Of a stretch of 64,000 bases of DNA, positions 7,714 to 50,373 are shown one piece after another. Both the position numbers and the translations under genes were made by a program. How positions within the stretch are numbered: position 1 is the stretch's first letter; each line of letters opens with the position of its first letter. The notes beneath the pieces are model-generated. The model did no database searches and was not told where the DNA came from. It saw nothing but the letters and a program-made list of their open reading frames with translations. Source of the DNA: Candidatus Poribacteria bacterium (GTDB taxonomy: Bacteria; Poribacteria; WGA-4E; WGA-3G); assembly GCA_022394755.1 (NCBI GenBank), contig JAGFCA010000011.1:1-64000 (forward strand), given 5' to 3'.

Positions 7714-7760
7714 TGTAAGGAAATAACTACAATAAAACATAAATCAATATGGAGGATTTT

Positions 7761-33384: not shown

Positions 33385-34668
33385 ATGCCACAAACACCAA
33401 ATATAGTTTTTATTCTTGCTGATGATCACGGTTATGGTGATATATCAGCACATAATGGTCCTTCAATTCAAACTCCACATATTGATAGAATCGCAGAAAG
33501 TGGCGTGAGACTTACTCAATTCTATGCAAACTCCTCGGTCTGTTCACCAAGTCGGGCATCACTCATGACAGGTCGATATCCAGATAGAGTCGGTGTTCCA
33601 GGAGTTATTCGGACACATGCAAAAGACAATTGGGGGTATTTTCAACAGGATGCTATTACACTTCCATCAATTCTAAAACTTAAAAATTACAACACATCTC
33701 TAATTGGTAAATGGCATCTTGGGCTTGAAGATGAGAATCATCCTTGTAAACGGGGCTTTGACCATTTTCACGGGTTTCTCGGTGATATGATGGATGACTA
33801 TTATACACATCTTCGCCATCAGAATAACTATATGCGTCGAGACTTTGAAACAATTGATCCAAGAGGTCACGCAACCGACTTATTCTCCGATTGGAGTGTT
33901 GAGTTCATCAAAGAACAGGTACAATCCTCCGAACCATTCTTCCTTTATCTTGCCTATAATGCACCTCACACTCCTATTCAACCACCGGACGAATGGATTG
34001 ATAGAGTGAAGAACCGTGAACCAGATATTTCTGAACAAAGGGCAAAATATATTGCACTCGTTGAACATATGGATGCAGGTATAGGACGGGTACTTGATTC
34101 TCTTGAAAAAACAGATCAACTCTCCAACACTCTTGTCATCTATACATCGGACAACGGTGGTCAATTGGGGGTTGGTGCACATAATGGACCATTGCGTGGT
34201 CAGAAGGGTGAAATGTATGAAGGCGGTATACGTGTTCCTACTTGTGCTATGTGGGAAGGACATATACCAGATGGACATGTTTCAGATCAAGTAGGTATGA
34301 TTATGGATTTCTATCCAACACTTTGTGATATAACGGGTATTCCAATTAACCATGAAATTGAGGGACAGTCTATACTAAAGACCTTACAAGGAGAAAAACA
34401 GGATTTCTCGGAACGTCTACTCTACTGGATTCGAAGAGAAGGGGGACAACAATTCTTAGGTGATTGTCAACATGCTATTAGACATGGGGATGTAAAACTC
34501 TTACATAACAGACCATTTGAACCTCTTGAACTTTACAACCTATCAGAGGATCCATTAGAAGCTACTGATATGGCAACAACAAATACAGATCAATTCAGAG
34601 AGATGGGAAATCTATTCCGACAAGAGATACAAAAATCTGGCAGCATCCCTTGGCAAAAGAATAATTAA
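33385..34668 (+). CDS. Type I sulfatase (arylsulfatase family), intact
   Basis: The 427-residue protein has the metal-binding start NIVFILADDHGYGD, the formylglycine motif CSPSRASLMTGRYP near residue 52, LIGKWHLGL, FFLYLAYNAPHTPIQPP and YTSDNGGQLGVGAHNGPLRG, all standard for the family. No signal peptide is seen, so it is either cytoplasmic or exported by another route. It needs a formylglycine-generating enzyme; the SUMF1-fold proteins of this window lack the required cysteines. It follows the mannonate-dehydratase-like gene after 116 bases, with GGAG upstream of the ATG. Confidence 0.92.
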   Translation: MPQTPNIVFILADDHGYGDISAHNGPSIQTPHIDRIAESGVRLTQFYANSSVCSPSRASLMTGRYPDRVGVPGVIRTHAKDNWGYFQQDAITLPSILKLKNYNTSLIGKWHLGLEDENHPCKRGFDHFHGFLGDMMDDYYTHLRHQNNYMRRDFETIDPRGHATDLFSDWSVEFIKEQVQSSEPFFLYLAYNAPHTPIQPPDEWIDRVKNREPDISEQRAKYIALVEHMDAGIGRVLDSLEKTDQLSNTLVIYTSDNGGQLGVGAHNGPLRGQKGEMYEGGIRVPTCAMWEGHIPDGHVSDQVGMIMDFYPTLCDITGIPINHEIEGQSILKTLQGEKQDFSERLLYWIRREGGQQFLGDCQHAIRHGDVKLLHNRPFEPLELYNLSEDPLEATDMATTNTDQFREMGNLFRQEIQKSGSIPWQKNN

Positions 34669-34985: not shown

Positions 34986-35014
34986 TTGACTTGCCTTAAA
35001 AACCGTTGTATAAT
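34986..35014 (+). promoter_or_regulatory. Sigma-70-type promoter of the GrpE/Hsp70 array
   Basis: TTGACT (34986-34991) and TATAAT (35009-35014) are separated by exactly 17 bases. The expected start of transcription is near 35021, leaving a leader of about 50 bases before the TTG start at 35073. No heat-shock-type (CIRCE) repeat is present, so this Hsp70 is probably not heat-controlled by HrcA. Confidence 0.75.
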
Positions 35015-35072: not shown

Positions 35073-35789
35073 TTGAGTAATGAAAATAAAAATGATATCG
35101 ATTCAAAATTAAAAGAAATCTTGGATAGTGAGTCAGATATTATGGTAGAGAATACTGATGAGACTGTAGATCCTGTTAAGAATTCCACTATAGATAACAT
35201 GGAATTACAACAAGAAAATTCTCTCGAAAAGATAAACCAGTCTTTAACTGAATTACTCGAAATATTCGAAAAACACATCTCTGGTAATCAGAATCAAATA
35301 CAGATGTTTGATAAAATGTATACCGAAATGAAGGACTATAAAGAGAATTTTCTACTTGATGTACTTCATAAACCCGTAATTCATAACTTAATTCAACTGT
35401 ACGATAGTTTTCTATCACTCGAATCTCAACTATCTTGTCTTATTGATGATAACAATGACAACACTCTATTAAATGAGTTAGTACAATATAATAGTAATTT
35501 ACAAAATTTTCGTTATGAACTGGAAGAAGTATTATACCGTTTGGATGTAACTCCTTACAAGGATTCGCCTGATACATTGGATAGGCAGTTACACAAGACA
35601 CGGAAAGTCATATCTACAGATGATCCAAATTTGGATCAGAAAGTTGCAGAAGTGCATAAAATTGGATTCTATTGGCGTGAGAAAGTGTTTCGGCCGGAAG
35701 ATGTAACCATTTATCGTTATATATCCTCTACTGATGAATCTGAAAATGGAAACACACATAATTCTTCAGATGAACTAAGGGGGAATTAA
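35073..35789 (+). CDS. Divergent GrpE-like nucleotide exchange factor
   Basis: The 238-residue protein begins with an acidic, disordered stretch of about 60 residues, then a long helix (about 60-110), a helical region, and a small C-terminal beta domain with VHKIGFYWREKVFRPEDVTIYRY, which matches the GrpE C-terminal pattern of K-x-G-x-x-x-x-x-R-V-x-R-P-x-x-V. GrpE proteins release ADP from DnaK. Length is larger than usual (about 190). The start is TTG with GAGGGG eight bases upstream. Its stop codon touches the ATG of the DnaK-like gene, so the two are co-translated. Confidence 0.78.
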   Translation: MSNENKNDIDSKLKEILDSESDIMVENTDETVDPVKNSTIDNMELQQENSLEKINQSLTELLEIFEKHISGNQNQIQMFDKMYTEMKDYKENFLLDVLHKPVIHNLIQLYDSFLSLESQLSCLIDDNNDNTLLNELVQYNSNLQNFRYELEEVLYRLDVTPYKDSPDTLDRQLHKTRKVISTDDPNLDQKVAEVHKIGFYWREKVFRPEDVTIYRYISSTDESENGNTHNSSDELRGN

Positions 35790-37385
35790 ATGGGTAAAGT
35801 TGTTGGAATAGATTTAGGTACGACATTTTCTGTGATTGCACATATAAATGAGCATGGACAACCTGAAATTATACCAAATTTAGAAAGTGATCGAATTACA
35901 CCTTCGGTTGTAATGTTTGAAGATAATCTGGTAACAGTTGGAAAAATTGCTAAACAAAATGCCAGAGCTGTCCCTGAACAGATTGTTGAGTTCATAAAAA
36001 GAGAGATGGGAAAATCAAAAACAAATTTCTTTCGTACATTCGAGGAAAAAGACTATTCACCTGAGGAACTTTCTTCACTAATTTTGATGAAACTGAAACA
36101 GGATGCAGAGATTTATTTGAATGAAGAAGTAACTGATGCTGTAATCACTGTACCTGCATATTTTCATGACGCAGAAAGAGAAGCAACGCGAAATGCTGGA
36201 AAAATCGCTGGATTTAATGTGCTACAAGTTCTAAACGAACCTACAGCAGCTGCTCTTGCTTATGGTATTGATCAACTTGGTAATAACCAGAATGTGTTTG
36301 TGTTTGACCTCGGTGGAGGCACATTTGATGTAACTATCATGCAAGTCTCTGAATCAGAAATTAAAATGTTGGCAACGAATGGAGATCATCGGTTAGGAGG
36401 TAAGGATTGGGACGATAAAATAATTACTTATGTTGCTGAGATGTTTGAGATTGAACATGGTGAAAATCCGCTGGATGATCTTCATACATATCAAGACCTT
36501 CAACTGGATGCCATTGGGGCAAAAGAATCGTTATCTCAACGTCAAAGATCATTAATTGTCTGTGGTTATAATGGGAAGACAACACGGGTCGAATTACAGC
36601 GTGAAAAATTTGAAGAACTTACTACAGATCTACTTGAAAGAAGCAGAACTCTTTGTGAGTTAGTATTAGATGAAGCAGAAATGTCCTGGGCTGATATTGA
36701 CAAGATTCTATTGGTTGGTGGTTCGACACGGATGCCAATGGTACAGGAAATGATTCGCTCAATTAGTGGGAAAGAGATTAATCCACATGAAGTTAATCCT
36801 GATGAGGTCGTCGCATTAGGGGCTGCTATTCAAGGAACTCTTCGTCAAATCACTGATGATACCATTGAAACACCGGATATGCCAGAAGCTGTCATTGAAC
36901 GATTTATTGGTCCTAATGGTGCTCCAAAAGTCACTGTAACAGATGGTGCTACACATAATCTGGGTCTTGTCGTCCTTAATTCAGAACGAGACTATATTGT
37001 TCATGTCATGATCCCCAAAATGACTGCTGTACCCTGTGAAATTGCAGATCAATTCTTGACTGTTGATGAAAATCAACAAACTGTACTAATTGAAGTAGTA
37101 CAAGGTCTTGAACAAGATCAACCGAAGGAACAAATTCCATTCTTTGATGAATATAAACTCGGAGAATGCATACTTGAGTTACCTTTTGGATTGCCACAAG
37201 GTTCTCCAATAGAGGTAAATTATAAATATAATTTAGACCAAAATCTTGAGGTGACAGCAAAATCATTGACTGATGACGGTCCTACTGCTGTTTTTGATAT
37301 CTTTTCAATAATTGATAGACCAACCCTGAATGAAGAAGAGGTATCACAAGCACAGACAGATCTTCAAGACCTTACAGTTGAATAG
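35790..37385 (+). CDS. Lidless DnaK/Hsp70 paralogue
   Basis: The 531-residue protein has a complete Hsp70 ATPase domain: GIDLGTTFS at 6-14, VPAYFHDAER, VFDLGGGTFDVTI at 171-183 and ILLVGGSTRMPMVQ at 306-319. The hydrophobic linker (normally D-V-L-L-L-D) reads KVTVTDG at about 380-386, after an insertion of about 20 residues. The beta substrate-binding half follows, to about 490, but the helical lid and EEVD-like tail are absent; housekeeping DnaK has about 640 residues. So it should bind ATP and partners, with altered coupling. It is flanked by a GrpE-like gene and by nine genes with J-like N-terminal modules. Confidence 0.9.
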   Translation: MGKVVGIDLGTTFSVIAHINEHGQPEIIPNLESDRITPSVVMFEDNLVTVGKIAKQNARAVPEQIVEFIKREMGKSKTNFFRTFEEKDYSPEELSSLILMKLKQDAEIYLNEEVTDAVITVPAYFHDAEREATRNAGKIAGFNVLQVLNEPTAAALAYGIDQLGNNQNVFVFDLGGGTFDVTIMQVSESEIKMLATNGDHRLGGKDWDDKIITYVAEMFEIEHGENPLDDLHTYQDLQLDAIGAKESLSQRQRSLIVCGYNGKTTRVELQREKFEELTTDLLERSRTLCELVLDEAEMSWADIDKILLVGGSTRMPMVQEMIRSISGKEINPHEVNPDEVVALGAAIQGTLRQITDDTIETPDMPEAVIERFIGPNGAPKVTVTDGATHNLGLVVLNSERDYIVHVMIPKMTAVPCEIADQFLTVDENQQTVLIEVVQGLEQDQPKEQIPFFDEYKLGECILELPFGLPQGSPIEVNYKYNLDQNLEVTAKSLTDDGPTAVFDIFSIIDRPTLNEEEVSQAQTDLQDLTVE

Positions 37386-37462
37386 AACTCCTTCACCTAT
37401 TATCATATTCTTACATACTATCATTTTAATTTCTTAAATGTAGAAACATCAGGAACATCTAT

Positions 37463-38842
37463 ATGTCCGATCGAGATGAATTTATCTCATTTGTATCAGA
37501 TTTCAAAGTAGTATCACCTACTATCTCACAGGAGCAACGAAAAGGTCTTTTGCGAAGAGGTGTTAACCAACACGGTCTCCAAATTGATGATGTAAATGAT
37601 ATTTTGAATAATTCAGGATTGATAATTGGTGAACAACAGGTAAATTTCTTTGAAGTATTAGACTTTAAGGTTGAAGATTTTGAAACTTACACCGAATCGG
37701 AGATTGAAGAACGTGTTCAGTCAACACACCAAAGTCTATATAGGAAATCCTTGAATTCAGGTGGACGTCCACGACCGGATGGAAAATCAGAAGAACAGTG
37801 GAGAAAAATTTTAAATGATGCACGGGATACCCTGTTAAATTCCAATAAAAGACAAGAACATATTTCTATACTCACTGCAAATTATGGTAATCAGATTCTT
37901 GATGAATCTGAAATTAATCAAACAACATCTTCTATAAGGTCTTCAACAATTACTGTTGAGGATAGGGTTATAGCAGTACATAAAAAGGTTGTAAATTCTA
38001 TAGTATTTTCACCTGATGGCACTTGTATTGCCAGTGGAAGTGCGGATAAATCAATATGTATCTGGGATGTGAATACTGGTGAAAAAAAACACACGCTAAA
38101 TGGTCATAAGGATCAAGTAAGATCTGTTGTGTATTCACCAGATGGACTAACAATTGTAAGTGGGAGTAATGACCGGACAGTATGTATCTGGAATGCTAAT
38201 TCCGGTGAGTTAAAAAAACGATTAATTGAACAAAAAGATAAGATTAGTTCCGTTGCTTATTCTCCTGATGGGAAAACTATCGCAAGTGGGAGTTATAATG
38301 GAACTATTCAATTATACAATGCTGAGACAGGGGAGCCTAAAATCCTACTCAAAGGACATAGAAATTGGGTTAGTTCCGTTTCTTATTCTCCTGATGGGAA
38401 AACAGTCGCATGTGCAAGTTATGACGGAAATGTCTATTTATGGAATTCTGAATCAGGGGAAAATACGCATGTTCTTACAGGTCATAAATTTAGTGTTATT
38501 GCAGTAACCTATTCCCCCAATTCTGAAACAATCATAAGTATTGATCTGCAAGGAACAATTCTTGCATGGAATGCTATCTCAGGGAAATCCAAGATCCTTC
38601 CAAAGGGTTTGATGTCTTGGATTAGTTCAGTAACATATTCTCCAGATACAACTATTCTCGCATGTGGTAGTTATCATGGGTCAATCACTTTATGGGATAT
38701 AAATAGCTGGGAAGAAATAAAAACTATTACTGGACATACCTCAACTGTAAAAGCACTATCCTATTCTCCAAATGGAAGGATTCTGGCAAGTTGTGGTGGA
38801 GATGGTAAGGTACGAATTTGGAATTCATCAATAAATAAGTAA
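37463..38842 (+). CDS. Array protein 1: adaptor plus J-like module with a seven-bladed WD40 propeller
   Basis: Residues 1-58 are helical (EFISFVSDFK, then EQRKGLLRRGVNQHGL). Residues 60-135 look like a J domain: FFEVLDFKVEDF as helix I, then a helix II ending YRKSLNSGGRPRPDG in place of Y-H-P-D, then EQWRKILNDARDTLLNSNKR as helix III. From about 175, seven WD40 repeats follow (for example FSPDGTCIASGSADKSICIW). WD40 propellers bind proteins or peptides. It is the only WD40 member of the array and is closest to the Hsp70 gene (77 bases). No enzyme motif is present. Confidence 0.85.
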   Translation: MSDRDEFISFVSDFKVVSPTISQEQRKGLLRRGVNQHGLQIDDVNDILNNSGLIIGEQQVNFFEVLDFKVEDFETYTESEIEERVQSTHQSLYRKSLNSGGRPRPDGKSEEQWRKILNDARDTLLNSNKRQEHISILTANYGNQILDESEINQTTSSIRSSTITVEDRVIAVHKKVVNSIVFSPDGTCIASGSADKSICIWDVNTGEKKHTLNGHKDQVRSVVYSPDGLTIVSGSNDRTVCIWNANSGELKKRLIEQKDKISSVAYSPDGKTIASGSYNGTIQLYNAETGEPKILLKGHRNWVSSVSYSPDGKTVACASYDGNVYLWNSESGENTHVLTGHKFSVIAVTYSPNSETIISIDLQGTILAWNAISGKSKILPKGLMSWISSVTYSPDTTILACGSYHGSITLWDINSWEEIKTITGHTSTVKALSYSPNGRILASCGGDGKVRIWNSSINK

Positions 38843-38927
38843 AACAATATGGAGCCACCAACCATCCATGCAAGGTATATTACAACGAAATTACTACTGA
38901 TCATATAATTTCAAATAGGTTCAATTC

Positions 38928-40211
38928 ATGTCCAAATCCGATGACTTCATTGCATTCATCAGTACTTTCAAAGATGCATCCCCTACGATTTCCGATGAAC
39001 AACGGAAAGGTTTTCTCAGGCTTGCAGTGGAAAAATATGGATTAACCTTTGATGAAGCAACATCTATATTTGATGCTTCGGGGATAGTAATTGGGGAAAT
39101 AGATAATCTACTTGAAATCTTTGGATTAACTGTCACAGAGATTAAAAGATATAATCAATCTGAAATTGTCAATCGCGTTGAGTCAATCCACAAGAAACTA
39201 TATAATGAATCTTTAATGTCGGGTGGTCGTCCACGGCAAGACGGCAGGTCAGAAGAACAGTGGCGTAGGATATTAAATCAAGCAAGAGATACACTAACTG
39301 ACTCGAAAAAACGTAACGAATATCTATCTTCACTACAATATAAAGAACCCTTCAATGAAATTAATTCAGGAGCAACAAGTCTTGAGGATATGTCATTTAT
39401 ACCTGAAGGTGAGTTTGAAATGGGTAGTAATGATGAAGAGGCGTTTGATGATGAGAATCCGGTTCATACTGTTTTTTTAAATGAATTCTATATTGACCAA
39501 TATCCTGTAACCAATGCACAATACAAGGTATTCCTTGATGCTAATCCACACTGGAATAAGCATGAAATGCCAAAAAAATATGGGGATGTTGATTATCTTA
39601 AACATTGGCGATGGGATACTTTTCCGAAAGGTGAAGCAGAATTTCCTGTTAGCAATGTTAGTTGGTATGCTGCTATGGCTTATGCACAATGGAAAGGTAA
39701 ACGATTGCCAACTGAGGCGGAATGGGAAAAAGCTGCACGCGGTGGATTAGTGGGTTATAATTATCCTCACGGTAATTCTATAGATGCAACTTCTGCGAAT
39801 TTTGACTGGAATATTGGTAAAACCACTCCTATTGGAAAATACCCTGCAAACGGATATGGTCTCTATGATATGTGTGGAAATGTGTGGGAATGGTGTCTTG
39901 ACAAATATGAGAAATCATTTTATAAAAATTCTCCCGATCGAAACCCTATTGCTAGTGAACAGACAATTGATTCCTTAAATCACAACTTCTTAGAGATCGA
40001 TTCCAATCGGGTTTTACGGGGTGGTTCATGGCGTATTCCTGCATCATTAATCAGAACAGCAAAACGAAATGCTGAAGCACCATGGTTTTCACTGAATGTT
40101 ATTGGGTTTCGGTGTGTATATCAAGATTTACATAAGGATAAATCTCTTATTTCTCCTTCCGATGGATCACTTATCTCACATTATTCAAAATTAGATTATG
40201 CCAAAACGTAA
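38928..40211 (+). CDS. Array protein 2: adaptor plus J-like module with a SUMF1-fold domain
   Basis: The 427-residue protein has the shared N-terminal module (residues 1-135, with GGRPRQDGRSEEQWRRIL) and, from about 150, a formylglycine-generating-enzyme-like (SUMF1) fold: MSFIPEGEFEMGS, QYPVTNAQYKVFL, VSWYAAMAYAQWKGKRLPTE, DMCGNVWEWCLD and RVLRGGSWRIPAS...IGFRCVY. The catalytic Cys pair of true FGE (after GGSY) is absent; the segment reads GGSWRIPASLIRTA. So it is more likely a binding domain than a sulfatase maturase. Its end overlaps the next gene by 14 bases. Confidence 0.85.
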   Translation: MSKSDDFIAFISTFKDASPTISDEQRKGFLRLAVEKYGLTFDEATSIFDASGIVIGEIDNLLEIFGLTVTEIKRYNQSEIVNRVESIHKKLYNESLMSGGRPRQDGRSEEQWRRILNQARDTLTDSKKRNEYLSSLQYKEPFNEINSGATSLEDMSFIPEGEFEMGSNDEEAFDDENPVHTVFLNEFYIDQYPVTNAQYKVFLDANPHWNKHEMPKKYGDVDYLKHWRWDTFPKGEAEFPVSNVSWYAAMAYAQWKGKRLPTEAEWEKAARGGLVGYNYPHGNSIDATSANFDWNIGKTTPIGKYPANGYGLYDMCGNVWEWCLDKYEKSFYKNSPDRNPIASEQTIDSLNHNFLEIDSNRVLRGGSWRIPASLIRTAKRNAEAPWFSLNVIGFRCVYQDLHKDKSLISPSDGSLISHYSKLDYAKT

Positions 40212-41484
40212 TGAGTATATTGAATTGATTAATGAATTCAAGACTGTCTCCCCAACAATTACAGATCAACAACGGATCGGTCTTCTTCGACGGGGTGTTC
40301 AACAATATGGCATATCAATTTCTGAAGCAGAGGACATAATTCAATCATCAGGCTTAATTGTTGGTGTAAAAATAGATTACTTCAAAATATTAGGGATTTC
40401 CATAAAAGATATACAGAATAAAAACGAGGAATTAATCACCTCAGAAATTCATTCGAAACACAAAGAACTATATAACACCTCATTAAAAGCAGGAGGTCGT
40501 ATACGATCTGATGGTAAAACTGAAGAACAGTGGCGGATCATACTAAATGAAGCACGCGATACACTTAAGAATGTTGAAAAACGTAAATACTATATTGCAG
40601 CATTACAAGCCGATGTTCAACCTGTAATTGAATTCCTACATGAGAATCCACCTATTCAAGATGCTGATGTATTAGGAGAATCAATTTCATTACAACCCGT
40701 AATTGAAGATAGTATGGCACTCATCCCCGCTGGAGAATTTCTGATGGGGAGTGAGGACATTGAAGCATACAATGACGAAAAGCCAATACACACTGTATAC
40801 ATTGATGACTTTTATATCGATCAATATCCTGTTACAAATATAGAATATAAAGAATTTGTCGATGCTAATCCTGAATGGGGTAAATCTAAAAAATGGTATG
40901 AGACTACCAGAGATACTATAAGTATTGACAAAAAATATCATGACGGTGATCACCTAAAAAACTGGAAAGGAAATAATTATCGGAGACATTGTGATTACCA
41001 TCCTGTAACTTGGGTTAGTTGGTATGGAGCAATGGCTTACGCACTATGGAAGGGTAAACGACTACCAACGGAAGCTGAGTGGGAAAAAGCTGCACGGGGA
41101 GGTTTAGTCGGACAGAAATATCCATGGGGTAACTCTTCAATTGTAAAACATCCTAACAGCGGCAACTTTTTCCATTATACCAACAAAGTTGGTCAAAATT
41201 ATGAAAATGGGTATGGTATTTATGATATGGCTGATAATGTTTTTGAATGGTGTATAGATTTATGGGATGAAAACTACTATACGCATTCTCCATATAATAA
41301 TCCTATCGCTGATGGATATTTAGTAGATATTTTACAGGATTTTACAAGTGTCATTACTCCGAGAGTGATTCGGGGCGGATCCTCTGTAATTACACCAATA
41401 AACACTCGTGTTTCATATCGACATAGAAATACACCTAATTATACAAGCTTTCATATCGGATTTCGTTGTGTAAAATCTATATAA
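40198..41484 (+). CDS. Array protein 3: adaptor plus J-like module with a SUMF1-fold domain
   Basis: The 428-residue protein has the shared module (GVQQYGISISEAEDII, then FKILGISIKDI and GGRIRSDGKTEEQWRIIL) and a SUMF1 domain from about 175 (MALIPAGEFLMGSED, QYPVTNIEYKEF, VSWYGAMAYALWKGKRLPTE, DMADNVFEWCID, RVIRGGSSVITP, IGFRCVKSI). The usual G-N-x-W-E-W block is D-N-V-F-E-W, slightly changed. No Cys follows the GGSS motif. It starts inside the previous gene (14-base overlap), so the two are translationally coupled, the only such overlap in the array. Confidence 0.85.
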   Translation: MPKRNEYIELINEFKTVSPTITDQQRIGLLRRGVQQYGISISEAEDIIQSSGLIVGVKIDYFKILGISIKDIQNKNEELITSEIHSKHKELYNTSLKAGGRIRSDGKTEEQWRIILNEARDTLKNVEKRKYYIAALQADVQPVIEFLHENPPIQDADVLGESISLQPVIEDSMALIPAGEFLMGSEDIEAYNDEKPIHTVYIDDFYIDQYPVTNIEYKEFVDANPEWGKSKKWYETTRDTISIDKKYHDGDHLKNWKGNNYRRHCDYHPVTWVSWYGAMAYALWKGKRLPTEAEWEKAARGGLVGQKYPWGNSSIVKHPNSGNFFHYTNKVGQNYENGYGIYDMADNVFEWCIDLWDENYYTHSPYNNPIADGYLVDILQDFTSVITPRVIRGGSSVITPINTRVSYRHRNTPNYTSFHIGFRCVKSI

Positions 41485-41536
41485 ATTAAATAAAATAATA
41501 ATCATCTACTTTTGGCTCATAAGAAATTATTCAATT

Positions 41537-42753
41537 ATGACAGAAAACAAAGAATTCATAGAATTTGTAAATAGATTAAAAACACTATCACCTATAATAA
41601 CAGAAGAACAGCGTATTGGTCTTATACGCCAAGGTGTTCATGAGTACGGTCTCACAACTGATGATGCCGAAAATATTCTGAAAACTTCAGGATTAATTGT
41701 TGGTGAACAGGAAAATCATTTTGAGATATTAGGTATCCCTATTGAAGATATTAAAAATCTAACTGAATCTGATATCGTAGCGTATGTAAAATCTGTACAT
41801 GAAGAACTGTACAGAGCTTCTTTGAATGCGGGGGACGTCCACGGTCTGATGGTAGAACAGAAGAAGAGTGGCGAAAACTGTTAAATCAAGCAAGAGATAA
41901 ATTAATAGATCCTAATGTACGATGGTTACATATTCCAAGTGAAGAAAAAGACATTCAATCAGAAACCAAAGGAACGCAGATTATTACAGATAACATGGTG
42001 TTGATTCCACATGGAGAGTTACAAATGGGAAGTGATGATCTTGGGTCTGACAAAAACGAAATACCTATCCAAACAGTATATGTTAGGGAATTCTATATAG
42101 ACGCTTTTCCTGTAACAAATATTGAATTTAAGCTATTTTTGGATAAAAATCCTAAATGGAAAACTTCCAAACTAATGGATGGGTTTACCATGAGAAAATA
42201 TCGTGATAGTGATTACTTAAAAACTTGGGACAGGAACAAATTTCCAGCCGGAAAAGAAGATCATCCGGTAACTTGGGTAAGTTGGTATGCAGCTATGGCT
42301 TATGCTCAATGGTTAGGCAAAAGATTGCCTACAGAAGCAGAATGGGAAAAAGCCGCCCGCGGTGGTTTAGATGGAGAGAAATACCCATGGGGGAATTCTC
42401 TTGATAAATCGTTGGCAAATTATGGTATAAACTTAGGCAGTACAACCCCAATTCGACATTATCCTCCGAATAATTATGGAATATACGATATGGTGGGAAA
42501 TGTAAATGAATGGTGTTTAGATAACAGAGAGCCAGACTTATATCAATCTTCACAAGGGATTAATCATGTCATGGATGACACCATTCAGAATATAGTAAAA
42601 GCATATACAAACATTAGAAAAAAGCGTATAGTAAGAGGCGGTTCATGGCATACTGCTGTTAAAGACCTACGAATATCCTACAGAAAGGATTTACCTCCAA
42701 CGACAACTGCAAGTGTTACAGGTTTTCGTTGTGTGAAACCTACCAACAAGTAA
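41537..42753 (+). pseudogene. Array protein 4: adaptor plus J-like module with SUMF1-fold domain, one-base frameshift
   Basis: The first frame (41537 onward) gives the shared module up to LYRASLNAG, then fails. In the paralogue at 42796 the same DNA reads GGA GGA CGT CCA CGG; here a G run at 41830-41834 is one base short, so the frame shifts. Adding one G restores GGRPRSDGRTEEEW and joins the SUMF1 part (MVLIPHGELQMGSDD, VSWYAAMAYAQWLGKRLPTE, DMVGNVNEWCLD, RIVRGGSWHTAVKD, TGFRCVK), for 405 residues. The C-terminal part could only be made from the ATG at 41995. Error or decay cannot be told apart here. Confidence 0.8.
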
Positions 42754-42795
42754 GAAATATTATTCTTATATTAAAATCCTAATTGAGGATCAAGA

Positions 42796-44073
42796 ATGCG
42801 TGAATATGATGAATTTCTCACTGTAATCAACACCCTCAAATCATTATCACCTGTAATAACAGAAGAACAGCGAATTGGTCTTATACGACAAGGCATTCAA
42901 GAATATGGTCTTACTACAGAGGAAGCGGATAATATTCTGAGAACCTCAGGATTAATTGTTGGTAAACAAGATAGTTATTTTGATGTCTTAGGAATCTCAA
43001 TTGAAGAACTGGAAAAACTCAGTGAAGCTGATATCATAGAATATGTTGAAGCTGTATTCGAAAGACTCTACCGAGCTTCTTTGAATGCTGGAGGACGTCC
43101 ACGGTCTGATGGTAGAACAGAAGAAGAATGGCGAAACATTTTGAATCAAGTAAAAGACACATTAATTGATCCAAGAAAAAGACATAACTACATTTCAACA
43201 CTTCATCATGAGGATACCCAGAACATTGAAAACGAAGTGTCAACAGAAAGTCTGACAACACCACAGGGATTATTGAAAGAAATTGTTCCAATTGGTATTG
43301 ATGTACCTGAAGATATGGTATATATACCAGCAGGAGAATTCCAGATGGGTAGCGAACATGCTGATGCTGAGGAAGATGAAAAGCCAATTCATACTGTTTC
43401 TGTTAATGAATTTCTTATGGATAAACATCCTGTTACAAATCGGGAATTTAGAGAATTTCTACAAAATAATCCTCAGTGGCGTAAACCTGAATTCCTTCAT
43501 AGTCATATCAAAATGGGTTTACATGATGGATCATATTTGAAGGATTGGCAGATGAGCATGTATCCAGCAGGGAAAGGTGATCATCCAGTTACCCAGGTGA
43601 GCTGGTATGCCGCTATGGCTTATGCACAATGGAAAGGTAAACGATTGCCAACTGAGGCAGAATGGGAAAAAGCTGCACGTGGTGGTTTGGAGGGAAAAGA
43701 CTATTCATTTGCTAATATTGAAGAGATCGACATTACAAAATCAACTTTCAATTCCGACGATACTGTTAGGATCGGACTTACACCGGAAAACAATTACGGA
43801 TTGTATGATATGTGTGGAAATGTCTGGGAATGGTGTCTTGATGCATATAATGCCGATTTCTATAACCACGCACCACAGAATAACCCTTTCTATGGACCAA
43901 ACAGCAGAGAATGGGTTTTAGATAACTTTCGACTTATAACTATCGGACGGGTCTTACGTGGTGGTCCATGGGGTATTGAATCTATAGGAGCTCGTGTTTC
44001 ACAACGTCTAAGAAGTCATCCAACTGATACATTATCAACATATAGCTTTCGTTGCGTAAAAGATATAGGATAA
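42796..44073 (+). CDS. Array protein 5: adaptor plus J-like module with a SUMF1-fold domain
   Basis: The 425-residue protein is the clearest case of the shared module: EEQRIGLIRQGIQEYGLTTE (helical), FDVLGISIEELEKL (J helix I), FERLYRASLNAGGRPRSDG (helix II and the loop without HPD) and WRNILNQVKDTLIDPRKRHN (helix III). The SUMF1 domain starts near 175 (MVYIPAGEFQMGSE, VSWYAAMAYAQWKGKRLPTE, DMCGNVWEWCLD, RVLRGGPWGIESIG, SFRCVKDIG). It lacks FGE cysteines. The ATG follows GAGG. A stretch of its middle is almost identical in DNA to array protein 2. A 480-base repeat-rich gap follows. Confidence 0.86.
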   Translation: MREYDEFLTVINTLKSLSPVITEEQRIGLIRQGIQEYGLTTEEADNILRTSGLIVGKQDSYFDVLGISIEELEKLSEADIIEYVEAVFERLYRASLNAGGRPRSDGRTEEEWRNILNQVKDTLIDPRKRHNYISTLHHEDTQNIENEVSTESLTTPQGLLKEIVPIGIDVPEDMVYIPAGEFQMGSEHADAEEDEKPIHTVSVNEFLMDKHPVTNREFREFLQNNPQWRKPEFLHSHIKMGLHDGSYLKDWQMSMYPAGKGDHPVTQVSWYAAMAYAQWKGKRLPTEAEWEKAARGGLEGKDYSFANIEEIDITKSTFNSDDTVRIGLTPENNYGLYDMCGNVWEWCLDAYNADFYNHAPQNNPFYGPNSREWVLDNFRLITIGRVLRGGPWGIESIGARVSQRLRSHPTDTLSTYSFRCVKDIG

Positions 44074-44554
44074 AACCGCATTTGTTATAAATATAATTTA
44101 ATTTCCTTATCATCTATAGGTACTTTAGTTTGGACAATCCTGAGTGTTATTGTCAATTTTCAAACTGTTCTTGGTTTTCACCACATTATTGAGTAAATCC
44201 GATTATAAGATATATTAATAGATATGAATAAAACAGCTCCCTGCAGGACGAAATGTGTGTAGAATCACTATAACGTACAATGGTAAAGCCCCAGAGGGGT
44301 GAAATGTGAGAGAATTACTATAACATACAATGGTAAAACCCAAGAGGGGCGAATGTCTGTAGAATTACTATAACATACAATGCTCAAGTACAAGAGGGGC
44401 GAAATGTGAGAGAATTACTATAACATACAATGGTAAAGCCCCAGAGGGGTGAAATGTCTGTAGAATTACTAAAACAAATAATGGTAAAGCCCCAGAGGGG
44501 CGAAATGTCTGTAGATCAAAACTGTCCAAACTATAGTAATAGGTATACTTCATT
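44074..44554. other. Gap with the 50-bp repeat array between array proteins 5 and 6
   Basis: The 480-base gap is far longer than the other gaps of the array (about 50-90 bases, except one). Its second half is the tandem repeat listed separately. The first half is AT-rich and holds no gene. It may separate two transcription units. Confidence 0.55.
44234..44516 (+). repeat. Tandem 50-bp repeat, five full units and one partial
   Basis: Units start at about 44234, 44285, 44335, 44385, 44435 and 44486, each 50-51 bases. A unit holds a GC-rich palindrome, GCCCCAGAGGGGC or a variant, then GAAATGT, a GAGAGAATTACTATAAC block and ATACAATGGT. The copies differ at a few places. There are no unrelated spacers, so it is not a CRISPR array. 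A related 51-bp repeat lies at 63605-63690. The hairpin could pause transcription or act as a recombination site. Confidence 0.85.
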
Positions 44555-45844
44555 ATGGCAAGACGTGAAGAATTCATTCAGATTATCAACACTTTTAAAA
44601 CGGTGTCAGCAATTATAACAGACAATCAAAGACGAGGTCTGTTGCAACAGGCTGTACAAACATACAATCTCTCTATTCAGGAAGGTATAGAGATTTTGGA
44701 TTCCTTAGGAATAGTTGTCGGTGAACAGACAAACTAGCTTGAGATTTTAGGTCTATCCCTACAGGAAATACAAGGTAAGGATGACCAGACAATCACGGAT
44801 ATTGTTAAAATAGCACATGATGACTTATATAAAGCATCGTTAGCTGCTGGTGGACGCATAAGATCAGATGGAAAAACTGAAGATCAGTGGCGAATGATAC
44901 TGAATCAAGCACGAGATATTCTGTGTGATATAAACAAAAGAAACGAATATATTACAAATCTACTTCAAGATGAATCTGAAGATTACACAATCCAAAATTC
45001 TTCCACAGGTCACAGTACCAATCCAAACGAAATACAGACCAGTGGAATTCCATCTGAAGCTGCCATTCAACAAATAATAGATCCTGTAGAAATTGATATA
45101 CCTTCTGAAATGGTATTGATCCCTTCAGGAGTATTTTTGGCAGGATTACAAGACAAAAAAATCAATGAGAGTGAGACATCGTCACATAATGTATACTTAA
45201 ATGGCTTTTTGATAGATAAATATCCTGTAACTAATTCTGAATTCAGTGTCTTTCTATCAGAAAACGAACTGTGGCAAAAATACAACATTTCTAAGAAATA
45301 CAACAGTGGAAAATATCTTAGTTCTTGGAATGGAAATAGCTATCCAAAAAATAAAGGTGATGATCCGGTTGTTGGTGTGAGTTGGTATGCAGCAATGGCT
45401 TATGCTAAATGGATAGAAAAACGGCTACCTACAGATATTGAATGGGAAAAAGCAGCGCGCGGCGGATTAACTGAAAAAACATACCCTTGGGGTGAAGATA
45501 TTACTAATAACCTGGCGAATTACGGAATGAGAGTAGGGAGTACTACCCCTGTTGGGACCTACCCACCAAATGAATATGGTGTATATGATATAGTAGGAAA
45601 TGTATGGGAATGGTGCCTAAATCAATATCAAGAAAATTCAGCGAATAGTAAACCAAATATATCTATTCAAGAGATTAGTGATATTATAGATTCCTACTTA
45701 GAAATTGAAAGTGATCGTGTATTACGGGGAGGTTCATGGGCAAGTAGTGAGCAAGCTCTCTCAGTGGGATATAGAGGTTTTGCCACCCCTAATATTACAT
45801 ATTATAGTTACGGATTTCGATGTGTAAAGGATATTCATAGTTAA
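44555..45844 (+). pseudogene. Array protein 6: adaptor plus J-like module with SUMF1-fold domain, in-frame amber
   Basis: The frame from the ATG at 44555 covers 430 codons with one TAG at 44735-44737. It falls where the paralogues have a Tyr or Phe (EQTN-stop-LEILGLSLQEI compared with NYFEVLGLSIEEL), so one base change (TAG to TAT or TAC) would mend it. The J-like module continues as AAGGRIRSDGKTEDQWRMIL, then the SUMF1 domain (MVLIPSGVFLAG, VSWYAAMAYAKWIEKRLPTD, DIVGNVWEWCLN, RVLRGGSWASSEQ, YGFRCVKDI). The first metal-side block is weaker (FLAGLQ in place of F-x-M-G-S). Restart at 44894 would lose the J-like part. Confidence 0.8.
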
Positions 45845-45902
45845 AATACTTCATTCCTTATAAAACTAATTAATAGTGTTCATCTATTTAGGAATTACCT
45901 GA

Positions 45903-47279
45903 ATGAAAAAACGTGAAGAATTCATAGATACTATCAATTTATTAAGATCTACATCCAATACCATCTCTGTAGAACAACGGACAGGTATTTTAAAACAAGG
46001 TGTACAAGAATACGGACTATCAATTAAAGAAGCCGATATAATTATAAGAGAAACAGGATTAAGAGTCGCGGACACTATTAATTACTTTAGAGCCTTAGGT
46101 TTGTCCAATCATGAATTTGAAAATCTAAATGAAAACACTATTACATCAATTATAGAAGATGCACATAGACAACATTATACAGATTCATTAAAAGCAGGTG
46201 GACTTCCTCGTACAGACGGGAGAACACAAAAACAGTGGAGAATTATTCTAAATTATGCAAGAGATACTTTAATAGATCCTCAAAAACGTGAGAAATATTT
46301 ATCTCAATTATTAAGTGAAGAATACACTTCAGATAATTTCAATGAGGATTTATTAAACATACATTCCACTGATATTGAAAACGGTAATCAAAAGCTTGAT
46401 GCCCGAATATCACTAAATAATCAGACTCCCCTACTACAATCACCGCAGATAGATTCAAATCAGAAGGTAATTACCCCTACTGATATTCCTTCAGATATGG
46501 AATATGTACCTGCTGGCGATTTCAAAATGGGAAGTAATGATGAAAAAGGTAGCAACAGAGAAAAACCCGCACATGACGTGTATGTTGATGACTTTTACAT
46601 CGACACGTATTTAGTTACCAATGCAAAATATAAAGAATTTTTAGATGCTAACCCGCAATGGACAAAACCAATAAAATGGTCTCTCTTTGAAAAAAGCAAG
46701 AAATCCTATATCAATGAAAAATATCATGACGGTGATTACCTCAAACATTGGCATGAAAATACCTACCCTGATGATAAAGCAGACCATCCTGTAACGTGGG
46801 TGAGTTGGTATGCTGCAATGGCTTATGCTCAATGGATCGGAAAACGGCTACCTACAGAAGCAGAATGGGAAAAAGCTACACGCGGTGGAATATCTGACCA
46901 GAAGTATCCTTGGGGTGAATCAATTGATTATACCATCGCTAATTATAATAACTATATTGGTAAAACAACTTCTGTCGGTCAGTATCCTGCTAATGGATAT
47001 GGAATTCATGATATGATAGGCAATGTTTGGGAATGGTGTCTTGACGAATACCAGGAAAATTTCTATTCAATTTCAGAACCCAAAAACCCAATCTGTGGAA
47101 TAAGTACGGTTGAATCAATAGAATATAGTAATGTGGACCATAGAAAAGAACGAGTATTGCGTGGAGGTTCTTGGCTTGATGCATCTCAATTCGTGCGGTC
47201 TGCATCTCGATATAGGAATTCACCAACACGCACTCTCGCAAGAATTGGGTTTCGTTGTGTAAAAATGGTTAACTCTTAA
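45903..47279 (+). CDS. Array protein 7: adaptor plus J-like module with a SUMF1-fold domain
   Basis: The 458-residue protein has the shared module (RTGILKQGVQEYGLSIKE, then FRALGLSNHEFENL and GGLPRTDGRTQKQWRIIL) and a longer linker of about 60 polar residues before the SUMF1 domain (MEYVPAGDFKMGSND, TYLVTNAKYKEFL, VSWYAAMAYAQWIGKRLPTE, DMIGNVWEWCLD, RVLRGGSWLDASQF, IGFRCVKMV). Its variable C-terminal segment reads RSASRYRNSPTRTLAR, close in style to the variable regions of DGR-targeted FGE-fold proteins. It lacks FGE cysteines. Confidence 0.85.
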   Translation: MKKREEFIDTINLLRSTSNTISVEQRTGILKQGVQEYGLSIKEADIIIRETGLRVADTINYFRALGLSNHEFENLNENTITSIIEDAHRQHYTDSLKAGGLPRTDGRTQKQWRIILNYARDTLIDPQKREKYLSQLLSEEYTSDNFNEDLLNIHSTDIENGNQKLDARISLNNQTPLLQSPQIDSNQKVITPTDIPSDMEYVPAGDFKMGSNDEKGSNREKPAHDVYVDDFYIDTYLVTNAKYKEFLDANPQWTKPIKWSLFEKSKKSYINEKYHDGDYLKHWHENTYPDDKADHPVTWVSWYAAMAYAQWIGKRLPTEAEWEKATRGGISDQKYPWGESIDYTIANYNNYIGKTTSVGQYPANGYGIHDMIGNVWEWCLDEYQENFYSISEPKNPICGISTVESIEYSNVDHRKERVLRGGSWLDASQFVRSASRYRNSPTRTLARIGFRCVKMVNS

Positions 47280-47335
47280 TCTTAAACGTTTGATTTTATT
47301 GCTTAGAATGTTAATTAACAATATGGTGGTTTGTT

Positions 47336-48682
47336 GTGTCTAATCGTAACGAATTTATTTCAATCGTCAATACACTTATATCCCTATCAAAATCAATTAC
47401 AGATGAGCAGTATAAGGCTCTTCTTCAACAAGCTGTTCAGGAATATGACCTAACTGTTGATGAGGCTTCAGATATCTTGAGGGCTTATGGATTGGTTATT
47501 GGTAAAAGGGTTAACTATTTTGAAGTATTAGGTCTATCTATTGAAGAACTTACCAATCAAGAAGAAATTGAGATTGCTTCACTTATTGAAAATGAGCATA
47601 AAAGACGTTATACAGAATCCTTACAAGCGGGTGGACTACCCCGTTCAGATGGCAGAACACAAGAACAGTGGCGAACATTACTAAACGAAGCATTTGAAAC
47701 TTTAATAGATCCCCATAAACGGACTGAATACATTACTACAATTCACTCTGAAGAATCGCAACCTGGTGCTCCTTTACCTCAAGAGGAACTATCTTCAACA
47801 GATGAGGCAACTTTCGGTATTTCTATTACAAAAGATATGGCACTCATACCAGTAGGTGAGTTCCAAATGGGAAATGATAACGAGAGAGCAAATGATAGTG
47901 AAATACCAGTACATACTGTTTACGTAGATACATTTTATATGGATAAATATCCAGTTACGAATATACAATACAAGCAATTTATTGATGCAAATCCACTATG
48001 GAGTAAACCAACAGGACGGTATGGATTAACGGGTTTGAAGACCTTGTCTGTTTTTCGTAAATTCCACGATGGAGATTACCTAAAAGATTGGAACGGTAGC
48101 AATTTTCCGGTAGGAAAAGATTCCCATCCTGTTACGCACATTAGTTGGTATGCAGCAATGGCGTATGCACAATGGATAGGGAAACGTTTACCAACAGAAG
48201 CAGAATGGGAAAAAGCAGCCCGCGGTGGCTTGACAGAACAAAAATATCCTTGGGGAAATGTCTTGGATTTAAACAAGTCATATTATGACAAAAACTTTAA
48301 TCAAACCATATCTGTTGGAGAATACCCTCCAAATGATTATGGATTATTTGACATGGTGGGAAACGTCTGGGAGTGGTGTCTGGATGCGTATAATTCGAAG
48401 TATTATATTTCTTCACCGAAACGGAATCCGATTGCTGGTATGAATTCTAAGGATGATTTGGATATACTAATTTCCAATTTTAGAAAGGTTGAAACTGATC
48501 GCGTCTTGCGGGGTGGAACGCAGTTTACTACCTCAGAACCCATCCATATAGGTACACGTTGGGCAGCTTCACCTGAAACCACTGGTATTCTTGCCTCAAA
48601 TCCGACTAAGGTGGCAACACTTCTATCTCCAGGATTGATAGCAAATATTGGGTTCAGATGTGTTCGGGATGTGAATATGTAA
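47336..48682 (+). CDS. Array protein 8: adaptor plus J-like module with a SUMF1-fold domain
   Basis: The 448-residue protein starts with GTG (MSNRNEF, as in most paralogues). It has the shared module (LLQQAVQEYDLTVDEASDIL, FEVLGLSIEELTN, AGGLPRSDGRTQEQWRTLL) and the SUMF1 domain (MALIPVGEFQMGNDN, KYPVTNIQYKQF, ISWYAAMAYAQWIGKRLPTE, DMVGNVWEWCLD, RVLRGGTQFTTSEPIH, IGFRCVRDV). Compared with the others it has about 22 extra residues between the GG motif and IGFRCV, shared only with array protein 9, so the two form a subgroup. No FGE cysteines. Confidence 0.85.
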   Translation: MSNRNEFISIVNTLISLSKSITDEQYKALLQQAVQEYDLTVDEASDILRAYGLVIGKRVNYFEVLGLSIEELTNQEEIEIASLIENEHKRRYTESLQAGGLPRSDGRTQEQWRTLLNEAFETLIDPHKRTEYITTIHSEESQPGAPLPQEELSSTDEATFGISITKDMALIPVGEFQMGNDNERANDSEIPVHTVYVDTFYMDKYPVTNIQYKQFIDANPLWSKPTGRYGLTGLKTLSVFRKFHDGDYLKDWNGSNFPVGKDSHPVTHISWYAAMAYAQWIGKRLPTEAEWEKAARGGLTEQKYPWGNVLDLNKSYYDKNFNQTISVGEYPPNDYGLFDMVGNVWEWCLDAYNSKYYISSPKRNPIAGMNSKDDLDILISNFRKVETDRVLRGGTQFTTSEPIHIGTRWAASPETTGILASNPTKVATLLSPGLIANIGFRCVRDVNM

Positions 48683-48760
48683 AACAGTCTTAATATAGTG
48701 TTTATACTTTCAACCGTAACTGATAGTTTGAGTTAAGGATAAGTGATTTAGATTTGTTCC

Positions 48761-48874
48761 GTGGCTTATGCTAAATGGATTGATAAACGTCTCCTGACAG
48801 AAACAGAATGGGAAAGAGTCACATGCACTCTTGAAAGAATTGGGATTCGTTGTGTAAAATTAACAACAACATAA
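48761..48874 (+). pseudogene. Remnant of a SUMF1-fold array gene
   Basis: A 37-codon frame begins VAYAKWIDKRLLTETEWERV and goes directly into RIGIRCVKLTTT before TAA. The first part is the central A-Y-A-x-W-x-x-K-R-L-P-T-E block and the second is the C-terminal I-G-F-R-C-V-K block, so about 130 residues between them are missing. It is an internal-deletion relic between array proteins 8 and 9. Confidence 0.8.
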
Positions 48875-48929
48875 TTCCGGGTGTTTTACGAATTTAATAT
48901 ATCTACACATTAATTATTTAGGGTTATGT

Positions 48930-50315
48930 ATGTCAAATCGTGAAGAGTTCATTGCAGTCGTAAATACACTGAAATCACTCTCCAATTCAATCTCAGATGA
49001 ACAGAATAGGAGTCTGTTACATCAAGCTGTCAATGACCATGGTATTTCAATAGAAGATGCAATAGAGATAATTAATTCATTAGGGATAACTGTTGGGGAA
49101 GCCATAAATTACATAGAAATATTAGAACTTTCTATTGAAGATTTTAGCTTACAAAATGAATCAACCATTGTTGAGAAGCTTGACATAGCACATAAAAAGC
49201 AATACTCAGAATCATTACAAGCAGGTGGGTTACCACGTCAGGATGGGAGAACCCAAGAACAATGGCGTAAAATTCTCAATCAAGCATATGATACATTAAA
49301 AGATCCAATTAAACGAAAAAATCATATTGAAGCTATACAAACTCAGACATTTCTTGAGGAAAGACCGTTCATAAGAGAAAATAAAACACCCATCTCTGAA
49401 GATGTCTCATTACAAGTAGCAGTACCAGAAGATATGGTTCTAATTCCATCTGGTAATTTTCTGATGGGTAATAGTGGTGATAATGCAAATTCACGCGAAA
49501 CACCTGTTCATACTGTCGATACTGATGAATTTTATATTGACAAATATCCTGTTACAAATGAACAATTTAAAGCGTTTGTAGATGAAAACCCATTATGGCG
49601 GAAACCCTCCTCTGGATTATGGTTAGATATTCAATATTGGTATGAGAAAGGAGATCAACCTTCAAGATTCATATATGATAAATATCATGATGGATATTAT
49701 CTCAAAAATTGGAAAAACAACAGATTCCCACTTGAGAAGGAAGATCATCCTGTTACACATGTCAGTTGGTATGCTGCAATGGCATATGCAGAATGGGTTG
49801 GAAAACGACTACCAACTGAAGCAGAATGGGAAAAAGCCGCACGCGGAGGTATGGATGGACAGAAATATCCATGGGGAGATATAATGGATTCTAAAAATGC
49901 CAATTGTACTGAGGAAGCATATAGAACTACCCCAAAAGGCAAGTATCCTGCTAACAAATTCGGTATCTATGATATGGTTGGGAATACATGGGAATGGTGC
50001 CTTGACGAATATAATATTGATTTCTATTCTTCTTCAGTTTCATCGAATCCTATTGCAGGTGTAGACTCTGATAAGGATATCAAAGAGCTCCTAGCCAATT
50101 TTAGACATGTTGACAGTGATCGTGTTTTGCGTGGAGGTAATTCCTTTATTTCGTCTGAACCGATCCATACATCCGCCCGATGGGGTGGCAAACCTATTCT
50201 TACAGAACTTGTGGCAAACTATTCAAGTCTATATTTACCTACACTTGCTAAGAGTATTGCAGCAAACATCGGTTTCAGATGTGTAAGAGATAAAAACGTA
50301 AAGATGAATTCCTAA
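48930..50315 (+). CDS. Array protein 9: adaptor plus J-like module with a SUMF1-fold domain
   Basis: The 461-residue protein is the last array member. It has the shared module (NRSLLHQAVNDHGISIEDAI, then IEILELSIEDFSLQ and AGGLPRQDGRTQEQWRKIL) and a SUMF1 domain (MVLIPSGNFLMGNS, KYPVTNEQFKAFVD, VSWYAAMAYAEWVGKRLPTE, DMVGNTWEWCLD, RVLRGGNSFISSEPIH, IGFRCVRDKN). With array protein 8 it shares the SEPIH motif and the long C-terminal insertion. There are no FGE cysteines. A GH95 gene follows after 58 bases and is probably not part of the system. Confidence 0.85.
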   Translation: MSNREEFIAVVNTLKSLSNSISDEQNRSLLHQAVNDHGISIEDAIEIINSLGITVGEAINYIEILELSIEDFSLQNESTIVEKLDIAHKKQYSESLQAGGLPRQDGRTQEQWRKILNQAYDTLKDPIKRKNHIEAIQTQTFLEERPFIRENKTPISEDVSLQVAVPEDMVLIPSGNFLMGNSGDNANSRETPVHTVDTDEFYIDKYPVTNEQFKAFVDENPLWRKPSSGLWLDIQYWYEKGDQPSRFIYDKYHDGYYLKNWKNNRFPLEKEDHPVTHVSWYAAMAYAEWVGKRLPTEAEWEKAARGGMDGQKYPWGDIMDSKNANCTEEAYRTTPKGKYPANKFGIYDMVGNTWEWCLDEYNIDFYSSSVSSNPIAGVDSDKDIKELLANFRHVDSDRVLRGGNSFISSEPIHTSARWGGKPILTELVANYSSLYLPTLAKSIAANIGFRCVRDKNVKMNS

Positions 50316-50373
50316 TTCTTGTGATAATCAATTTTAAGAGACATTGATTTCACATCCTAAAGAGAGATTAATT

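Follow-up and report, generated by a model that had tools for sequence, protein, structure and literature searches.

An array of J-like adaptor genes without the HPD motif beside a DnaK-like gene suggests a self-contained Hsp70 circuit in Candidatus Poribacteria

Bacterial conflict systems centred on GAP1-N2 GTPases include neighbourhoods of HSP70 and GrpE with a DnaJ-fused FNIII protein, and a subset of these HSP70 variants contains a second HSP70 without the peptide-binding domain (Kaur et al. 2020, PMC7159879). The same paper describes FGS (SUMF1-fold) heads as neutralising binders, and EADs as N-terminal domains that are common to many effectors. Among the J proteins, type IV members such as Pam16 lack the HPD motif, and the HPE-bearing J proteins DjlB and DjlC act with HscC (PMC13254874). 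Here we analysed a stretch of 64,000 nucleotides from a Candidatus Poribacteria genome (assembly GCA_022394755.1, contig JAGFCA010000011.1, positions 1 to 64,000), which we call the window and which lies on contig 7 of a source genome of 5.19 Mb in 228 contigs. At 35073-50315 the window contains an array of a GrpE-like gene, a DnaK-like gene and nine adaptor genes, and we found no description of such an array in the open-licence PMC literature. We suggest that the array encodes an insulated, self-contained Hsp70 circuit with target-specific adaptors, apart from the housekeeping DnaK and DnaJ, a reading for which our confidence and our doubt are about equal.

The array begins with a GrpE-like gene of 238 aa with a TTG start (35073-35789, forward strand as are all array genes; Pfam GrpE at E 7.7e-9), whose stop codon directly adjoins, with zero gap, the start of a DnaK-like gene of 531 aa (35790-37385; HSP70 at E 9.7e-121). 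The DnaK-like protein is formed by a nucleotide-binding domain (NBD, residues ~1-353) and a substrate-binding domain beta (SBD-beta, a weak match at residues 402-520) and has no lid segment, in agreement with the "lidless" DnaK of the preliminary description. Downstream, at 37463-50315, nine genes on one strand share an N-terminal module. Adaptor 1 (37463-38842) joins the module to a WD40 propeller, and the other eight join it to a SUMF1-fold (FGE-sulfatase) head: adaptors 2 (38928-40211), 3 (40198-41484, overlapping adaptor 2 by 14 bases), 4 (41537-42753), 5 (42796-44073), 6 (44555-45844), 7 (45903-47279), 8 (47336-48682) and 9 (48930-50315). The gene order given in the preliminary description was confirmed by open reading frames (ORFs), Pfam and a module profile, and its head types by Pfam, with the amendment that two of the nine adaptors are broken in this assembly, adaptor 4 by a frame change near 41.8 kb and adaptor 6 by an in-frame TAG near 44.73 kb. 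A 50-base unit is repeated in tandem (5.3 copies, 44249-44515) in the gap before the broken adaptor 6. When the own genome was searched with the profile of the seven intact modules, ten stretches matched at E <= 7.8e-13, and every one of them lies in the array.

The module of adaptor 5 was modelled with AlphaFold2 on the basis of 110 modules (pLDDT 87.9, pTM 0.57), and its residues 57-139 were predicted as a J fold by AlphaFold2, Foldseek and VIA, while residues 1-56 form three predicted helices. The 20 best Foldseek rows against the PDB consist of 18 DnaJ, Hsp40 or J-domain entries and two radial-spoke or axoneme chains, with a probability > 0.9 in 19 of them. NCBIfam HscB matched the J stretch weakly in two window adaptors, and a PDB sequence search with the module profile gave no match. 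The HPD motif is missing from all 110 modules and its place is taken by a fixed loop, Y..SL..G...R.DG.....W; as a control, HPD is kept in 30/30 ordinary J-domain loci of the genus. Ten residues are invariant in the 110 modules (I21, Y92, S95, L96, G99, R103, D105, G106, W112 and L116), nine of them between late helix II and helix III, and the mean entropy in the 99 SUMF1-head modules is lowest at residues 92-117 (0.75 versus 1.39, 1.78 and 1.63 elsewhere). The module had been called J-like in the preliminary description, which holds for the predicted fold of residues 57-139 and fails for the HPD motif. Since HPD is missing in every module, ordinary ATPase stimulation cannot be assumed; a designed J analogue without HPD is able to stimulate Hsc70 (PMC13254874).

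The array DnaKs of 23 other loci show 69-93% identity to the window copy, and the lengths of the array DnaKs range from 523 to 534 aa, with no lid match. Residues were compared by E. coli DnaK numbering, placed on the array DnaKs through the NEPTAAALAYG and GDTHLGG motifs. The place of R167 is occupied by Q in 23 and by H in one of the 24 array DnaKs, the place of T199 is H in all 24, and the LLLD linker is gone in all 24 (the window linker reads KVTVTDGAT), whereas R167, T199 and LLLD are all kept in 21/21 ordinary DnaKs, a set made of the own genome's copy and 20 chosen from the list of DnaK matches. In E. coli, two residues of the HPD motif touch DnaK, D35 at R167 and H33 at the linker residue L391 (PMC13012618). 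Because R167 and the linker leucines are lost in the DnaK-like protein and HPD is lost in the module, both sides of this known contact are changed. The nucleotide site of the actin-like NBD is largely retained, with 16 of the 21 checked positions invariant in the 24 array DnaKs and the same as in ordinary ones; the remaining five are the R167 and T199 places and window positions 194, 201 and 313 (the last T in 22 and I in 2). The GrpE-like protein of the window scores 35.9 bits with Pfam GrpE (cut-off 25.8) and far under the cut-off of the NCBIfam GrpE equivalogs. A PDB sequence search with the GrpE-like profile found no relative. Within the phylum, 24 of 84 genomes have a relative, which in G079 is a weak one.

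We then examined whether the module and the DnaK-like gene go together in other genomes; genomes (G), contigs (C) and loci (L) are given below by our own numbers. The module profile matches 29 of the 84 genomes of the phylum, in three of 21 genera and within one family. The full-length module in its usual form is present in 26 of these genomes, and G054, G055 and G063 have the J half alone or diverged copies. A DnaK-like gene lies <= 2 kb from a module gene in 26/26 full-module genomes; it is split over two ORFs in G031, and in G036 a module-less WD40 gene with a signal-like start (L059:12785-14353) stands between the DnaK-like gene and the array. By hand count, 27 of 34 module clusters include the DnaK-like gene, five of the other seven adjoin a GH95 gene and resemble the distal part of an array that has been split, and the remaining two (G036 contigs 15 and 20) are satellites. 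In the diverged locus of G063, whose modules lack R.DG and whose DnaK has K at the R167 place, one ORF (L050:4331-6310) fuses a DnaK NBD, the first half of a module and a GrpE-like part, although it comes from a single genome bin and might be an assembly error. The preliminary description had linked the module to Hsp70 from one locus; across genomes the module is not found mostly away from DnaK and GrpE genes, and the link is better supported than its author could know. All 30 module loci found in GTDB contigs are titled Poribacteria in a scan with one degenerate peptide pattern, and such a scan would miss relatives from other phyla if they lack that motif. With one module as query, no match was found in plasmids and phages, and no relative was confirmed in viral contigs.

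The heads were examined in 108 module proteins, of which 99 carry an FGE head, seven a WD40 head and two neither. These two (L096:6964-8574 and L100:10001-11608, the second scanned as L042:5542-7149) have heads without a Pfam match and, by eye, apparent membrane helices. The catalytic cysteine pair of FGE is the CxxxxC that follows GG in the C-terminal part, and it is absent from the FGE place in 99/99 heads, including one head without RGG there that was read separately; C....C occurs elsewhere, within CYGFRC, in two heads. SUMF1 enzyme activity of the heads was rejected on account of this missing pair. The nearest relative of a head is found in another genome for 96 of 99 heads, and in a midpoint-rooted tree 81 of the 99 fall into eight classes with <= 1 copy per genome (sizes 14, 13, 13, 11, 10, 10, 5 and 5; three of these classes have low node support, at 0.08, 0.24 and 0.70), with 18 outside. 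The heads were called interchangeable in the preliminary description; given these classes, they do not look freely so. Head and module share the same nearest relative in 55/99 proteins, indicating that they often, not strictly, travel together. When we mapped the 40 positions with the strongest separation between the six larger classes, 18 fell within a 36-position C-terminal stretch of the 257 positions; the hypergeometric value of 9e-8 for this concentration is a guide only, as positions are assumed independent and the 40 were picked by the same measure. Hypervariation of the heads driven by a diversity-generating retroelement (DGR) was considered and rejected for the own genome (93.8% complete), which has no match to the reverse transcriptase family PF00078; the loops are also conserved within classes. 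The own genome has 27 FGE matches in all.

The array occupies a variable slot between two genes that lie outside the unit, a sulfatase-type gene on the left (33385-34668, forward strand; orthologues scanned as Sulfatase) and a GH95-type (fucosidase) gene on the right (50344-52680, forward strand; orthologues scanned as GH95). Complete cassettes, with both flanks on one stretch, were found at 14 loci, in which we counted non-nested ORFs >= 90 aa. They contain 58 module+FGE ORFs, five module+WD40 ORFs, three module- or FGE-alone pieces and 14 others, together with the DnaK-like gene in 14/14 and the GrpE-like gene in 8/14. GrpE as part of the unit, as proposed in the preliminary description, thus holds for eight cassettes; in the other six the GrpE-like gene is missing and an ankyrin-repeat gene, recognised by eye, stands next to the sulfatase in its stead. 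Two cassettes have a non-adaptor gene of 250-263 aa (L063:6259-7008 and L070:14963-15751), which resembles a DUF2971-type protein. No killing effector (nuclease, toxin or protease) was recognised in the 14 cassettes, with five of the 14 other ORFs not looked at, and no GTPase was recognised in the nine of these ORFs that were read, with no GTPase model run.

The flanks themselves are widespread. A sulfatase match at E 1e-180 is present in 56/58 family genomes (with scoring of the 30 top candidates per genome) and a GH95 match at E 1e-250 in 51/58. In 19 of the 32 family genomes without the full module, the flank genes stand <= 3 kb apart with no array (~55 bases apart in G040 and ~195 in G028); of the others, by hand count, ten lack one or both flanks or have them on different contigs and three have them ~70 kb apart. 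We read 12 array-less slots, ten from those 19 genomes and two from genomes with an array elsewhere (G062 and G068), and two hold nothing of size and ten hold an ankyrin-repeat ORF by eye. The ankyrin-repeat gene stands in the same slot with or without an array (L140-L149; L032, L034, L035, L039, L040 and L041), and a 364-aa ORF in the slot of G080 (L146:3873-4964) resembles, by eye, a TnpB-type transposon protein. In the slot of G062 (L144:2673-3713) lies a 347-aa ORF that starts with 117 DnaK-like residues (82% identity) and continues into an adaptor SUMF1 head; this fusion is the scar of a deletion and shows that the slot formerly contained the cassette. Because the flanks stand together without the array and the G062 slot contains a scar, the DnaK-plus-adaptors unit is gained or lost as a cassette, and the sulfatase-fucosidase pair does not need it. 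Polysaccharide use as the function of the array was rejected on account of these empty sites.

A paralogous locus, which we call type B and which joins a GrpE-like part to a DnaK-like gene, was found on nine contigs (G041:C103, G043:C125, G046:C60, G047:C87, G053:C239, G054:C76, G055:C68, G063:C22 and G071:C139). Its adaptors mostly consist of the J half alone, and HPD is absent from all 13 J halves compared, a 14th row spanning the first half only. The first HSP70 of type B is followed by a vWA domain in the one scanned with Pfam (L043). A caspase-PEGA-FGE gene lies beside six type B loci, as judged by Pfam in one and by full-length similarity to that one in five (L045, L046, L047, L048, L049 and L135, beside HSP70, GrpE-like and DnaK-like genes), and the caspase protein of L048 has, by eye, an apparent N-terminal membrane or signal segment. 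Type B loci resemble the parts list of the conflict systems described in PMC7159879.

Upstream of the GrpE-like gene, a sigma-70-like promoter pattern (TTGACT-17-TATAAT, 34986-35014, forward strand) scores 11/12. The good promoter of the preliminary description therefore exists as a pattern, although a score of 11 or more was reached in 7/200 shuffles of the gap upstream of the array, and promoter-like sites are not in excess over the region as a whole (52 found versus 69.1 in shuffles). Our alignment A6 includes the GrpE-like genes of 12 other loci; when we scored the 400 bases upstream in ten of these, the best site reached 12/12 in seven, 11 in one, 10 in one and 7 in one. Further genes in the window were noted in passing. 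A 1382-aa protein about 7.5 kb left of the array (23442-27590, reverse strand) gives PADLOC TmtA matches (best E 2.1e-101), and a DNA methyltransferase-like gene (29586-31002, reverse strand; PADLOC MTase_II) overlaps a gene of 251 aa, possibly its restriction partner. A tail like TTWGxLK is common to the ends of unrelated proteins at 7749-8393, 14452-15495 and 52798-53622.

Based on these observations, we propose how the insulated circuit may work. The J-fold module of each adaptor would dock on the dedicated DnaK-like protein via a changed contact, in which Y92, S95, L96, G99, R103, D105, G106 and W112 would replace HPD and would lie opposite the Q at the R167 place and the changed linker. 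The C-terminal loop region of each head would bind one particular target, and a target-loaded head would bring the lidless, probably slow-hydrolysing DnaK-like protein to that target, which the DnaK-like protein would hold or remodel. The circuit may be reset by the GrpE-like protein where present, and otherwise by the housekeeping GrpE. Since no nuclease, toxin or protease was recognised in the cassettes, the output is likelier to be holding, neutralising or remodelling than cell killing. We count the predicted J fold, the lost contacts on both sides, the conserved replacement loop, the linkage and the fusion ORF in favour of this circuit, together with the missing cysteine pair and the C-terminal class-separating positions of the heads and the designed J analogue that works without HPD.

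Several points weigh against it. The circuit is predicted from sequence, and the structure model of the DnaK-like protein is poor (pLDDT 62), too poor to use. The predicted J fold covers the second half of the module alone, next to the three predicted helices of residues 1-56; the best Foldseek E is 0.32 with no row below 0.001, Pfam gave sub-threshold matches alone (DnaJ at E 0.013 and 0.095 in two of seven modules), and VIA-align Z reached 9.3 on residues 58-139 and 7.8 against the DnaK-bound J domain 5nro_B, where the VIA notes say that Z < 8 (< ~13 for helical bundles) may mean merely a common helical arrangement. On the side of the DnaK, the first HSP70 of type B keeps R167 in 5/5 beside HPD-less J halves and has H at the T199 place in 5/5; as R167 is kept there while the T199 place is H, the loss of T199 does not go with the loss of R167, and the pairing is not strict. 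The change of T199 to H could also mean no ATP hydrolysis, and hence a scaffold. The GrpE-like gene is absent from six of the 14 complete cassettes; among the six genomes concerned, a GrpE-like gene is present in the type B locus of G047, G053 and G071, whereas no such gene was found at E 0.001 in G061, G070 or G081. Finally, an HPD-less J fold, as in type IV J proteins, may not contact Hsp70 at all (PMC13254874).

This last point leads to an alternative that we consider unlikely, in which the modules have become pseudo-J domains, have given up binding to Hsp70 and only oligomerise, with the DnaK-like protein folding the heads or acting elsewhere. It would explain the loss of HPD in 110/110 modules, as HPD replacements mostly abolish stimulation, and it has a precedent in Pam16, whose J fold forms a pair with a second J domain (both PMC13254874); the R167 kept by the type B first HSP70s beside HPD-less J halves also suits it. 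However, no part of the module is better conserved than the stretch standing in for HPD, the changes on the DnaK side fall at the matching contacts, the DnaK-like gene is linked in 26/26 genomes, and one relative fuses NBD, first module half and GrpE-like part in a single ORF. Somewhat less probable still is a dedicated housekeeping chaperone for the cell's own clients, such as sulfatases or other SUMF1-fold or WD40 proteins, with heads that act like SUMF2, which is catalytically dead. The missing cysteine pair of the heads, the 27 FGE matches of the own genome, the sulfatase orthologue present in 22 of the 41 loci that were searched and the conserved head classes, which suit stable own clients, are consistent with such a role. 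On the other hand, the sulfatase occurs in 56/58 family genomes and stands <= 3 kb from GH95 without an array in 19 of the 32 that lack the full module, and thus the array is not needed for the sulfatase. The same 19 genomes largely refute a reading of the array as ordinary duplicated genes in a polysaccharide-use locus, which the sulfatase and GH95 flanks might suggest and which we regard as very improbable, the array components also carrying conserved changes of their own.

A conflict system deserves more weight than these, though we hold it to be a possibility rather than an expectation. It shares the mechanism of the insulated circuit and adds a purpose: the heads would recognise and neutralise parts of phages or rivals, akin to the systems of Kaur et al. 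(2020). HSP70/GrpE conflict neighbourhoods, DnaJ-fused heads, EADs and neutralising FGS heads are all known (PMC7159879), DnaJ serves phage sensing by bNACHT25 (PMC12169576), the presence of the array is patchy in one slot, and the type B paralogues join DnaK-like and GrpE-like genes to another HSP70, fused to vWA in the single case that was scanned, with the caspase-PEGA-FGE gene added at six loci. Against this stand the lack of a recognised effector among the cassette ORFs looked at, head classes that are conserved across genomes, unlike hypervariable recognition, and an own genome without reverse transcriptase. PADLOC, run on six of the 11 array genes, matched the DnaK-like gene weakly (PDC-M61B, 2.3e-4) and adaptor 1 with a model of WD40 type (HEAT-ARM_XIII, 2.6e-24) but neither the GrpE-like gene nor three SUMF1 adaptors, and the plasmid, phage and viral searches described above yielded no confirmed relative. 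Defence, self/nonself sensing and symbiosis, the roles raised in the preliminary description, are candidate roles of the array.

The insulated circuit bears on a question raised in a 2026 review, which calls it enigmatic whether HPD losses are accident or selected and asks whether HPD-less J proteins recruit Hsp70 without stimulating it (PMC13254874). With total HPD loss, a replacement loop with invariant residues in 110 modules and the two partner contacts lost, this question becomes directly testable here with one Hsp70 and several adaptors, and the system could yield a chaperone circuit that does not talk to a host DnaK. More speculatively, and with considerable doubt, the array may be a natural orthogonal Hsp70-J pair, with the R.DG loop in place of HPD and R167 and the linker changed to match. 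Such a pair would be the common hub for a set of receptors inside the cell, and the SUMF1-fold and WD40 heads of these receptors would detect foreign or altered molecules from a fixed repertoire.

Among known systems, the array heads share the FGE-sulfatase Pfam domain with FGE/SUMF1 and SUMF2 and differ from FGE/SUMF1 in having no catalytic cysteine pair at the FGE place. They also belong to the FGE/CLec fold family of the DGR variable proteins TvpA, Mtd and TaqVP (PMC6328139), and their class-separating residues lie in what is the C-terminal variable region of those proteins; unlike DGR targets, they stand in a genome without reverse transcriptase and their loops are conserved within classes across genomes. 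Like the EADs as described in PMC7159879, one module is common to many paralogous proteins of a genome, whereas EADs are described there as multimerising adaptors and the array module, predicted as a J fold, is linked to an Hsp70 gene. The GAP1-N2 HSP70/GrpE variants of the same paper are similar in their neighbouring GrpE and HSP70 genes, their shortened HSP70 (in a subset) and the fusion of a J domain to a binding head, and the array differs from them in its SUMF1-fold and WD40 heads in place of FNIII, its HPD-less J half and its many paralogous adaptors. The GAP1-N2 HSP70 theme is reported for actinobacteria and firmicutes, and the main text of that paper gives no match to "poribacter". The array would extend chaperone-centred multi-head systems to Poribacteria. 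Finally, Pam16 and the DjlB/DjlC-HscC pairs (PMC13254874) share with the array a J fold with altered HPD and, for DjlB and DjlC, a diverged partner Hsp70; in contrast to them, the array modules have a fixed R.DG loop in place of the entire HPD motif, and both R167 and the linker leucines are missing from the Hsp70 encoded next to them.

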